Source: Treponema sp.
GTDB lineage: Bacteria > Spirochaetota > Spirochaetia > Treponematales > Treponemataceae
Length of the DNA: 33,351 bases
Reading direction: 5' to 3'
Assembly: GCF_024696245.1 (NCBI RefSeq)
Contig: NZ_JAILGZ010000050.1
Coordinates: 1 to 33,351 of the forward strand
Shown here: positions 1,001 through 19,348 of the stretch, in pieces
Layout of the letters: every line of letters begins with the position of its first letter
Position numbering within the stretch: the first letter of the stretch is position 1
Notes under the pieces: generated by a model
The model's input: the letters and a program-made list of their open reading frames with translations, nothing else
Databases searched by the model: none
What the model was told of the DNA's origin: nothing
Translations under genes and position numbers: made by a program

Positions 1001-1990
1001 TTATTCAAGAACGATTTTTGTAATGGTTGCTCCGTGGCCGATAAGTTTAAATCCGTCAGTCTTAATTGCAGTCCATTCATCAGCTGATGGTGTATAGCTG
1101 AAGTTTGCAGGAGTTGCAGAAGGAGCAGTTTCAAAAGAAACTCCATGAAGATCATCTGCGCTTTCAGAAGTTAAATCGATGGTGATACCGCTGCCACTTC
1201 CTGCATAAAGTTCAGTTGTTCCAGAAAGCATCTTAAACTTCTGGTAATCGCTTGTGCCGTCTGTAATGTAAGTAACTGTAATTTTTGATTCAGCAGTTGC
1301 AGTTGCAAACTTATCTGCAGAAACAGAAACAGCAGTACCCCAGTCAAGGGTTGCTTCTGAAGAAATAAGTCCGCAGTCAACAACTTCTTCTTCTTCTTCA
1401 GAAGCCTGTGCATTTGAATTAAGCAATGCCTGATATTCATGTTCGCTGGCTGACAGTTCTGCATAATAGCTGTTTTCTACTCCACCAGCATTCTGGTTTG
1501 TATCGATAAGTGCTACAACAATACTGCTGAGGTCTACAACATTTTTTCCTGCACCTGTAATCTCACCGCTGATAAGCTGGAAGGTTACTGTGTCTCCAAC
1601 GCTGAGTGTCTGGTTAAGGGAAGGCTTTACCTTGTATTCCTTAAGGTTCTGGCTTTCTTCAAACTTAGCACCGTATTCATCAAGAGCAAATGTAAGGGTC
1701 GAAGAAGACATTTCTACTTCTACACCATTGACAGTTGCTGTCATTACTGCATCTTTGATTTTGATTGATTCATCTGAAGTATCATCTGTAGGTTTGTCAT
1801 ACTTAAGACAAAATACAACCTGATCTCCAGTTCCAGCAGAAGCAGTTGTAATAGGGAATTCAAGAAGGTTTCCTATTGGATCACTTGTTGAATTGTTTTC
1901 ATCTTCACCACTTCCACTGCAGGCAGTAAGTCCTGCAACCATTGCTGTCATAGCAGCAAGTGTCATGATTTTGTTTAAAGCCTTTTTCAT
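1001..1990 (-). CDS. Lipoprotein with glycan-binding-like C-terminal domain
   Basis: The protein has 329 residues. A type II signal peptide ends in the lipobox LTAC with Cys24, followed by a Ser/Gly/Glu/Asp linker, so it should be a lipoprotein. Residues about 40-180 look like an all-beta domain that I do not recognise. An acidic stretch (EEEEEVVD, around 199-206) precedes a C-terminal domain ending in GFKLIGHGATITKIVLE. This ending resembles carbohydrate-binding beta-sandwich modules found at the ends of secreted Bacteroidetes and spirochaete glycanases (inferred from motif memory). No catalytic motif is visible. AAGGAG sits just upstream of the ATG. It follows the two barrel genes by 63 bases and precedes a terminator, so it is probably the last gene of that unit. 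A surface glycan-binding role, like SusE/F in Bacteroidetes, is an inference. Confidence 0.7.
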   Translation of the reverse strand: MKKALNKIMTLAAMTAMVAGLTACSGSGEDENNSTSDPIGNLLEFPITTASAGTGDQVVFCLKYDKPTDDTSDESIKIKDAVMTATVNGVEVEMSSSTLTFALDEYGAKFEESQNLKEYKVKPSLNQTLSVGDTVTFQLISGEITGAGKNVVDLSSIVVALIDTNQNAGGVENSYYAELSASEHEYQALLNSNAQASEEEEEVVDCGLISSEATLDWGTAVSVSADKFATATAESKITVTYITDGTSDYQKFKMLSGTTELYAGSGSGITIDLTSESADDLHGVSFETAPSATPANFSYTPSADEWTAIKTDGFKLIGHGATITKIVLE

Positions 1991-17585: not shown

Positions 17586-17894
17586 TTAGCAGATAACAAC
17601 AGAGTTGTCTGTATGTGAGAAAGGAGCCGGAATGTACTTGTCTGCTGCCCAGTCGTTTTCCCACTGTTTGCCGTCAAGAAGATAGCGGAACTGATATTCT
17701 TTACCAGCTTCAAGAGGAATTTTTACGGAGAAAGTTCCGTCTTTACCCTTCTTGAGTGGTGTTTCAGTGCTGCTCCATCCATTAAAGTCGCCTGCTATGG
17801 TTACTGTTTCAGCTCCATGTGCAGCGTCCTGTGAAACGGAAAATGTAACATTACAAGTAACTTTGTCTTTGGAATAGGATTTTTTTAAAGCCAT
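17586..17894 (-). CDS. Free-standing CBM48 (AMPK/isoamylase N-terminal-like) glycogen-binding protein
   Basis: The protein has 102 residues, and the whole chain is one early-set beta-sandwich. The CBM48/AMPK glycogen-binding pattern is clear: VTIAGDFNGWS (31-41), then LKKGKDGTFSVKIPLEAG, YQFRYLLDG, W and a NDWAADKY segment. Such modules normally sit at the N-terminus of branching or debranching enzymes and bind alpha-1,4/1,6 glucans. Here there is no catalytic domain. There is no signal peptide, so a role at intracellular glycogen is inferred. GGAG lies seven bases from the ATG. The gene has its own promoter and terminator and is therefore a monocistronic unit, divergent from metK. Confidence 0.85.
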   Translation of the reverse strand: MALKKSYSKDKVTCNVTFSVSQDAAHGAETVTIAGDFNGWSSTETPLKKGKDGTFSVKIPLEAGKEYQFRYLLDGKQWENDWAADKYIPAPFSHTDNSVVIC

Positions 17895-18017: not shown

Positions 18018-18046
18018 TTGATTTTAACAACTTACTGTATTATATT
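18018..18046 (+). promoter_or_regulatory. Sigma70-type promoter of metK
   Basis: TTGATT (18018-18023) and TATATT (18041-18046) are 17 bases apart. The start would be near 18053, just upstream of the riboswitch. The flanking 17967-18017 is AT-rich with nothing else recognisable. Confidence 0.5.
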
Positions 18047-18062
18047 TCACGTGCACTAACTA

Positions 18063-18135
18063 TCCGCCGATTTATCCAAATTGCAGAGCGGAAGCTGTCC
18101 TCGCAGGAGGTCAGTAAATCTTGCTAAAAGGGAGG
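18063..18135 (+). promoter_or_regulatory. SAM-II type riboswitch with an extra hairpin, in the metK leader
   Basis: The leader aligns to the SAM-II pseudoknot riboswitch. P1 is TCCGC (18063-18067) with GCGGA (18088-18092). The loop has GATTTA (18069-18074), CC (18076-18077) and TTGCA (18081-18085). The 3' strand has TAAA (18115-18118) and GCTAAAAGGG (18123-18132). The loop aligns base for base to the metX SAM-II RNA whose structure is known. Predicted pseudoknot pairs are G83-C124, C84-G123 and A85-U122 (last digits of position), plus CC 76-77 with GG in the ribosome-binding site AGGGAGG (18129-18135). Between P1 and TAAA lies an added hairpin, 18095-18114, with a 7-bp stem, a U-U mismatch and a GCAG loop. 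SAM binding would hide the ribosome-binding site and reduce MetK synthesis (known mechanism, applied by inference). Confidence 0.85.
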
Positions 18136-18142
18136 CTCGACT

Positions 18143-19348
18143 ATGAGCGCTGTCTTAAACAAAAATCATCACTTATTTACATCAGAATCAGTAGGAGAAG
18201 GACACCCGGACAAACTTTGTGATCAGGTTTCGGATGCTATCCTTGATTATGCCCTTTCTCTTGATAAGAATGCCCACGTTGCCTGTGAGACATTTTCTAC
18301 TACAAATTTCCTTCTTGTTGGAGGAGAAGTAGGTTTTCAGGATCCAAAAGTAGACATTAATGTATTTAAGTCAAACGTAGAAAAAATAGCCCGTCAGGTT
18401 GCACTTGATATCGGTTATGATTCAGCAGAAAAGGGACTGGACGGTAAAAACTGTGTATTTGAAAACCGTATCCATGCCCAGTCAGCAGATATTAATCAGG
18501 GTGTAGTAGGAAAAGGCCTTGATGAATACGAAGGTCAGCAGGGTGCCGGAGACCAGGGAATGATGTTTGGTTATGCCTGCAATGAAACTCCTTCACTTAT
18601 GCCTGCTCCAGTATACTATTCACATCAGATTCTTCTTAAAGCCCATGAACTTCGTCACTCAGGTGCCATAAAGTGGCTCAGGCCTGATGCAAAATCTCAG
18701 GTTACAGTTGAATATGACGGTTTTAAGCCTGTAAGAATCGATACTGTTGTAGTTTCTCATCAGCATGATGACGTTGTTTCTCACGAAGAACTCGAAAAGA
18801 CTATAATAGAAAAGATTGTTAAGCCTGTTCTTGAACCAACTGGTCTTCTTGATGAAAACACAAAGTACTACATCAACCCTACAGGCCGCTTTGTAACAGG
18901 TGGTCCTGATGGAGATGCAGGTCTTACCGGCCGCAAAATTATCGTAGATACTTATGGTGGAATGGGCCGTCATGGTGGTGGAGCATTCAGCGGTAAGGAT
19001 CCTTCAAAAGTAGACCGTTCTGCAGCTTACATGGCCCGCTATATTGCAAAGAACATTGTTGCAGCAGGTCTTTCTGACAGGGCAGAAGTTCAGCTGGCTT
19101 ATGCTATTGGTGTTCCATTCCCTGTATCAATTATGGTAGATACTTTTGGAACAGAAAAGTATGACTGTGCAAAGATTGTTGCTGCCGTAGAAAAGGTTTT
19201 TGACTGCACACCTGCAGGAATTTCAGCAACCCTTAACCTTAAGCAGCCAATTTATCGTAAAACAGCAAGCTATGGTCACTTTGGCCGTGAAGGTTTCCCT
19301 TGGGAAAATACTGATAAGATTCAGGCCCTTCAGGAAGCTGTAAAATAA
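18143..19348 (+). CDS. metK: S-adenosylmethionine synthetase
   Basis: The protein has 401 residues, the normal length for the family. It makes S-adenosylmethionine from methionine and ATP in the cytoplasm. Signature segments are [24 protein letters not shown] near the N-terminus (with the ATP/Mg-binding GHPDK), [12 protein letters not shown] in the middle, and [19 protein letters not shown] in the C-terminal third. The ATG at 18143 lies seven bases after AGGGAGG, which is part of the riboswitch. Feedback control by its own product is therefore expected. nth follows after 19 bases, probably on the same transcript. Confidence 0.98.

Follow-up and report, generated by a model that had tools for sequence, protein, structure and literature searches.

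The closest described relatives of the RNA reported here are the SAM riboswitches SAM-II (metA motif, SAM_alpha, RF00521) and SAM-V (RF01826). In the crystal structures of both, the loop L1 occupies the P2 major groove, and SAM bridges a U at its adenine end and an A at its amino-acid end (PMC6061858). In SAM-V, P1 and the AAA strand are separated by a stem-loop, P3, which SAM-II does not have; in SAM-V the Shine-Dalgarno sequence lies within a short P2a that is stabilised by SAM, and control is translational (PMC6061858). SAH is strongly rejected by both classes (PMC1273637, PMC6061858). SAM-II RNAs from other Proteobacteria and from Bacteroides were listed already in 2005 (PMC1273637), and a SAM-II group with longer loops (SAM-II long loops, RF01726) is described for Bacteroidetes and marine bacteria (PMC2864571). 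In the translational metA SAM-II of Sinorhizobium meliloti, the Shine-Dalgarno sequence lies inside the expression platform, and the start codon used is 74 nt downstream (PMC9373788).

The window analysed here is the whole stretch of 33,351 nt from a Treponema sp. genome. In this window, the metK leader RNA (18063-18135) is an H-type pseudoknot with the metK ribosome-binding site at its 3' end, in which UCCGCC-GAUUUAUCCAAAUUGCA-GAGCGGA is followed by the hairpin CUGUCCUC-GCAG-GAGGUCAG and then by UAAAUCUUGCUAAAAGGGAGG, and the distance from the end of AAAUCUUGCUAAAAGGGAGG to the metK ATG (18143) is 7 nt (Table 1). The sequence agrees with the description in the earlier note, with P1, GAUUUA (18069-18074), CC (18076-18077) and UUGCA (18081-18085) all present. 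The leader strand is non-coding and is flanked by a divergent small gene (17586-17894, minus strand) and by metK, which scores above the TIGR01034 cut-off of 309 bits. With a probability of roughly 90%, this leader is predicted to belong to the SAM-II/SAM-V pseudoknot superfamily, to sense SAM and to act as an OFF riboswitch on translation.

Table 1. Features of the metK leader and gene (window positions) and leader RNAs of sigma-factor genes in five Treponema genomes
Feature	Positions	Strand	Evidence or remark
Possible promoter, TTGATT-17-TATATT	18018..18046	+	Consensus scan, 9/12 matches; weak alone
P1 5' strand, UCCGCC	18063..18068	+	6/6 P1 pairs changed on both sides (n=75); 93.4% of cells paired
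L1, GAUUUAU, expected third strand of the P2 triplex	18069..18075	+	Triplex role by analogy (PMC6061858, PMC5352136)
P2a 5' strand, UCC, complementary to Shine-Dalgarno GGA	18075..18077	+	C76 75/75, C77 73/75, U75 73/75
P2 pseudoknot 5' strand, AUUGCA	18080..18085	+	U82 75/75; U81, G83, C84 73/75
P1 3' strand, AGCGGA	18087..18092	+	Top position C.A in the window; many relatives have C-G or U-A
Extra hairpin, at the place of P3 in SAM-V	18095..18114	+	Covariation and shuffle test
A-rich L3, UAAAUCU, expected in the P1 minor groove	18115..18121	+	Analogy to SAM-V A40-A42 (PMC6061858)
P2 pseudoknot 3' strand, UGCUAAA	18122..18128	+	G123 to A128 75/75
Shine-Dalgarno sequence GGGAGG; 18131-18133 is the P2a 3' strand	18130..18135	+	G131, G132 75/75
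metK, methionine adenosyltransferase, regulated gene	18143..19348	+	NCBIfam TIGR01034, 564 bits, E=1.3e-169
Sigma-factor leader RNA L146	4802-4871	-	Directly upstream of the gene
Sigma-factor leader RNA L145	6850-6918	-	12-14 codon leader ORF between
Sigma-factor leader RNA L143	4322-4390	+	12-14 codon leader ORF between
Sigma-factor leader RNA L144	4914-4981	+	
Sigma-factor leader RNA L161	2329-2398	-	

The window RNA shares with SAM-II the pseudoknot core, the GAUUU third strand, the UUGCA/GCUAA P2 and all SAM contacts, and P3-less RNAs from the same spirochaete phylum (L122, L120) exceed the Rfam cut-off of that family. However, the SAM-II model misses the window RNA, which has a covarying 7-bp P3, and alphaproteobacterial SAM-II RNAs commonly have a long P2a and terminators, whereas P2a is short here and contains the Shine-Dalgarno sequence. 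With SAM-V, the window RNA shares the position of P3 directly after P1 and the short P2a, in which the nearly invariant UCC and GGA face each other. In contrast, the SAM-V core consensus is UUGUGC/GCACUAAA as against UUGCA/UUGCUAAA in the window, the P3 of the crystallised metY RNA has 3 bp as against 7 bp and a mismatch here, and the SAM-V model has no match to the window RNA. The likeness to SAM-II long loops is in the longer loops, and the model of that group does not pick up the window RNA. The Sinorhizobium metA leader also holds a Shine-Dalgarno sequence in its expression platform, but the metK ATG of the window follows that sequence after only 7 nt.

Because features of both Rfam families were tested and some were absent, the RNA was not filed in either family. 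Judged by its sequence, it is a SAM-II core (UUGCA/UGCUAAA) with a SAM-V periphery (P3 and the Shine-Dalgarno sequence in P2a). It is best regarded as a variant form within the SAM-II/SAM-V superfamily and not as a plain member of either family. The earlier note had called it a SAM-II riboswitch with an inserted hairpin in a spirochaete-like genome, and had regarded both the insertion and the host as notable. The identification holds for the core and not for the SAM-V-type periphery, and the novelty of the insertion has to be given up, since P3 of SAM-V is at exactly the same place (PMC6061858) and P3-like hairpins occur in alphaproteobacteria too. The host is a spirochaete, with close relatives named Treponema. 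SAM-II is not confined to alphaproteobacteria, given its listing in other Proteobacteria and Bacteroides (PMC1273637).

The conservation of the parts was determined in alignment A2, which contains 75 distinct relatives. Residues from U71 to A128 and G131 and G132 are numbered by the last digits of their window positions (U71 = 18071, A2 column 11). U71, U72 and U73 correspond to U10, U11 and U12 of the metX SAM-II, and U125 and A128 to the SAM-contacting U44 and A47. U72, U82, G123-A128, G131 and G132 are invariant in 75/75 relatives; within L1, U73 is likewise found in 75/75, and U71 in 70/75 with G in the other 5. Among the equivalents of SAM contacts taken from the metX SAM-II and the metY SAM-V, U72, U82, G123, C124, U125, A126, A127 and A128 are therefore without variation, and the equivalents of U11, U21, U44, A47, C43 and G42 (SAM-II contacts and core) are invariant or nearly so. 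In 72/75 relatives, a GGAG is spaced 5-10 nt from the first start codon. In agreement with the earlier note, the Shine-Dalgarno sequence, with its invariant GG, is placed so that it could form pseudoknot pairs with CC of the loop. The pairs of P2 and P2a hardly vary and give no separate covariation support for the pseudoknot, so both helices rest on homology.

By analogy with the structures of SAM-II and SAM-V, the GAUUUA third strand and P2a (UCC with GGA) would be open at low SAM, leaving GGGAGG free and metK translated. Abundant SAM would sit in the P2 major groove between U125 and A128 and lock the triplex. In the bound state P2a would be stabilised and the Shine-Dalgarno sequence hidden, and the production of SAM synthetase would stop, which would amount to end-product feedback. 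Since UCC faces GGA of the Shine-Dalgarno sequence and both are almost invariant, high SAM should block metK translation. P3 is expected to be an independent stem closing the base of P1, most likely stacking under P1 and leading the AAA strand towards the minor groove of P1. P3 would be dispensable, because relatives without P3 exist.

No terminator ahead of metK was found in the leader, and P3, which lacks a T run, was ruled out as a terminator or attenuator. The possible promoter would place the transcription start about 10 nt ahead of P1. The nested fold of the leader by itself is not unusually stable (z -0.83). A hairpin GAUUU/AAAUU within the P1 loop, seen in the nested fold and considered for the apo state, is broken in relatives with GAGUU or AACUU and is speculation.

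A changed ligand preference of the same fold, for example for SAH or for SAM and SAH together, is improbable. Such a preference would fit ahcY as the downstream gene in other spirochaete families (L105, L106, L111, L112) and the five Treponema RNAs with GAGUUA for GAUUUA, in which the altered third-strand base (18071) is the one that contacts the adenine-pairing U. However, no variation is seen at U72 and U82, the uridines next to the sulfonium, or at the contacts U125 and A128; SAM-II and SAM-V discriminate strongly against SAH (PMC1273637, PMC6061858); and the window itself has metK as the downstream gene and U at position 71. The GAGUUA variants represent a natural test of ligand specificity.

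P3 of the window comprises 20 bases with 7 bp and one U.U mismatch. The earlier note had noticed this extra stem and proposed to look for its covariation in relatives; the stem is real, with 8/8 pairs changed on both sides in A2 and also in A1, a structure-blind MAFFT alignment. For P1 and P3, both covarying, 94.1% of cells were paired in A2, which is fitted to the model and so biased towards its structure, as against at most 53% with the partner slid, and A1 gave the same picture (for P3, 87.3% against at most 52.4%). Folded alone, 67/75 P3 segments were better than 95% of their own shuffles. A chance hairpin was ruled out by the covariation.

P3 varies in length; some RNAs within the genus do without it (L127-L132, 46-52 nt), and some other spirochaetes have it (L105, L106, L112-L114). 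The hairpin was also observed in alphaproteobacterial SAM-II-like RNAs (L217, L219, L229, L230, L235, L247), being long and variable in L217, L219, L230 and L247. Presence in distant groups together with absence in members of the same genus indicates, on this comparison of sequences, that P3 is repeatedly gained or lost, and its natural presence and absence within one genus makes its function directly testable. The six alphaproteobacterial RNAs belong to Neomegalonema and Rhodobacteraceae, combine P3 with a Shine-Dalgarno sequence, and have downstream a gene for a PLP enzyme that by eye is metY/metZ-like.

A structured cis-regulatory leader without SAM binding of its own, either protein-bound or purely translational, is still less probable than a changed ligand. 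Among the stems, P3 varies most but is kept best, and its loop, GUAU-like in 47/75 relatives, could be read by a protein; but the invariant nucleotides are those of the SAM-binding pocket, and P3 varies in length and loop and is absent in some relatives. A SAM-sensing riboswitch remains the preferred reading.

The earlier note had named the Rfam SAM-II covariance model as the check, and this model gave no match at all, a result that by the letter of this check would refute the finding. None of the 4227 families of Rfam 15 matched in the window, nor did any match the site itself with the threshold relaxed to E=10; those P3-bearing metK leaders that were scanned with Rfam (E up to 10) also gave no match. 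In whole-genome searches with RF00521, RF01826 and RF01726 (the last at E<=10), whose gathering cut-offs are 36, 41 and 44 bits, respectively, the metK site was not listed. SAM-I (RF00162), considered as the resident SAM switch, was not found in the genome. Most likely RF00521 misses the site since the inserted hairpin has no counterpart in this model, which is tuned to alphaproteobacterial sequences.

Independent models were used for detection. R1 was built from 27 Treponema relatives, and because it contains the window, two further models were made: R2 without the window and its nearest relative, and R3 without any Treponema sequence, from other spirochaete RNAs (including L120 and L122) and four betaproteobacterial ones. 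The site scored 70.4 bits with R2 (E=1.6e-16) and 44.7 bits with R3. In an unfiltered search of the window, this R3 match had E=3e-10, and the second-ranked one reached 9.0 bits. In the whole genome, it was the sole good R3 match (E=2.3e-8; next best 19.0 bits); the E-values are rough, as the calibrations were short. R1 also matches P3-less spirochaete RNAs, for which Rfam SAM_alpha gives 45.2 bits (L122), 38.5 (L120) and 30.0 (L111) against the cut-off of 36. As Rfam recognises some member sequences of R3 as RF00521, the site is linked through R3 to recognised SAM-II sequences by homology, which supports a SAM-II-type aptamer ahead of a spirochaete metK. Chance resemblance without function, to which the failure of 4227 Rfam models might point, can be dismissed, being refuted by the comparative data: the R3 match, genus-wide conservation at equal distance from metK, and covariation.

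By pattern search and comparison of metK orthologues, the same leader was found in close relatives, and within the genus it precedes 30/30 of the metK genes that match best. R1 matches were obtained in 86/142 genomes of the genus (38/62 good ones) and, more weakly, elsewhere in the phylum, in further families and orders, where distant matches are often 52-55 nt long and without the hairpin. R3 matched in 58/392 spirochaete genomes, corresponding to 28/166 sampled spirochaete genera. In the genome scan, the element was found in Treponema bryantii NK4A124, T. zioleckii, Treponema sp. JC4 and many Treponema MAGs; the T. bryantii RNA (L201) is identical to that of G105, a genome placed in the genus of the window. 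The element is not universal in the genus, as 20 metK leaders without a match show nothing with R3 either (best 8.9 bits). Since many genomes of the genus are without it, the regulation is not essential to the lineage. Some Treponema metK leaders without SAM-II (L316, L317, L318, L322) share another conserved stretch, GGCGGACGCGCTCGCCACATGCCCGCC, which may be another regulatory RNA. In open papers, no published account of SAM-II-type RNAs in Treponema or other spirochaetes was found, and an earlier description is possible.

The downstream gene is metK in the window and the close relatives examined, and metK or ahcY in other spirochaete families. Often in these other families (L105, L106, L109, L110, L111, L112, L116, L117), the riboswitch Shine-Dalgarno sequence opens an ORF of 18-35 codons whose end is close to, or overlaps, the ahcY or metK start. 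This arrangement suggests translational coupling and recalls Sinorhizobium, in which SAM-II acts at a distance (PMC9373788). P3-bearing SAM-II-type RNAs were also observed upstream of sigma-70-family genes in five Treponema genomes (Table 1). The spirochaete contig L147 contains tandem SAM-II-type RNAs at 1376-1431 and 1596-1647 (plus strand), the first followed by a terminator-like sequence and the second by a Shine-Dalgarno sequence, with a gene of 225 aa downstream; this arrangement resembles the Pelagibacter SAM-II/SAM-V tandem.

Tandem or multiple SAM-II/SAM-V-like RNAs were observed in betaproteobacteria (L184, L187, L191, L194, L218, L224, L226, L234, L239, L245, L250, L257), preceding metK, MoxR-like AAA ATPases and genes of no assigned function, and L239 additionally has a SAM-I/IV at 57.6 bits. 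The spirochaete L107 has an ATPase related to these MoxR-like ones with a similar leader. One betaproteobacterial copy precedes a radC-like ORF; the radC RNA motif (RF01754) was considered for these copies and was not reported by Rfam.

These RNAs could represent an undescribed spirochaete SAM-II/SAM-V subgroup, with a SAM-II core and a P3 that is gained and lost, that controls metK and ahcY of the SAM cycle and, in some Treponema species, an alternative sigma factor as well, a proposal to which slightly less than even odds are given. The relatives ahead of sigma-factor genes suggest that SAM control extends past methionine genes; a SAM-controlled sigma factor would be new, and if the subgroup includes such an alternative sigma factor, the SAM level would set the transcription programme. 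With this finding, spirochaetes join the alphaproteobacteria and marine bacteria from which such a SAM riboswitch fold is best known; the Rfam models miss it in the spirochaetes. The finding also supplies intermediates between SAM-II and SAM-V, classes treated as separate though their cores superimpose.
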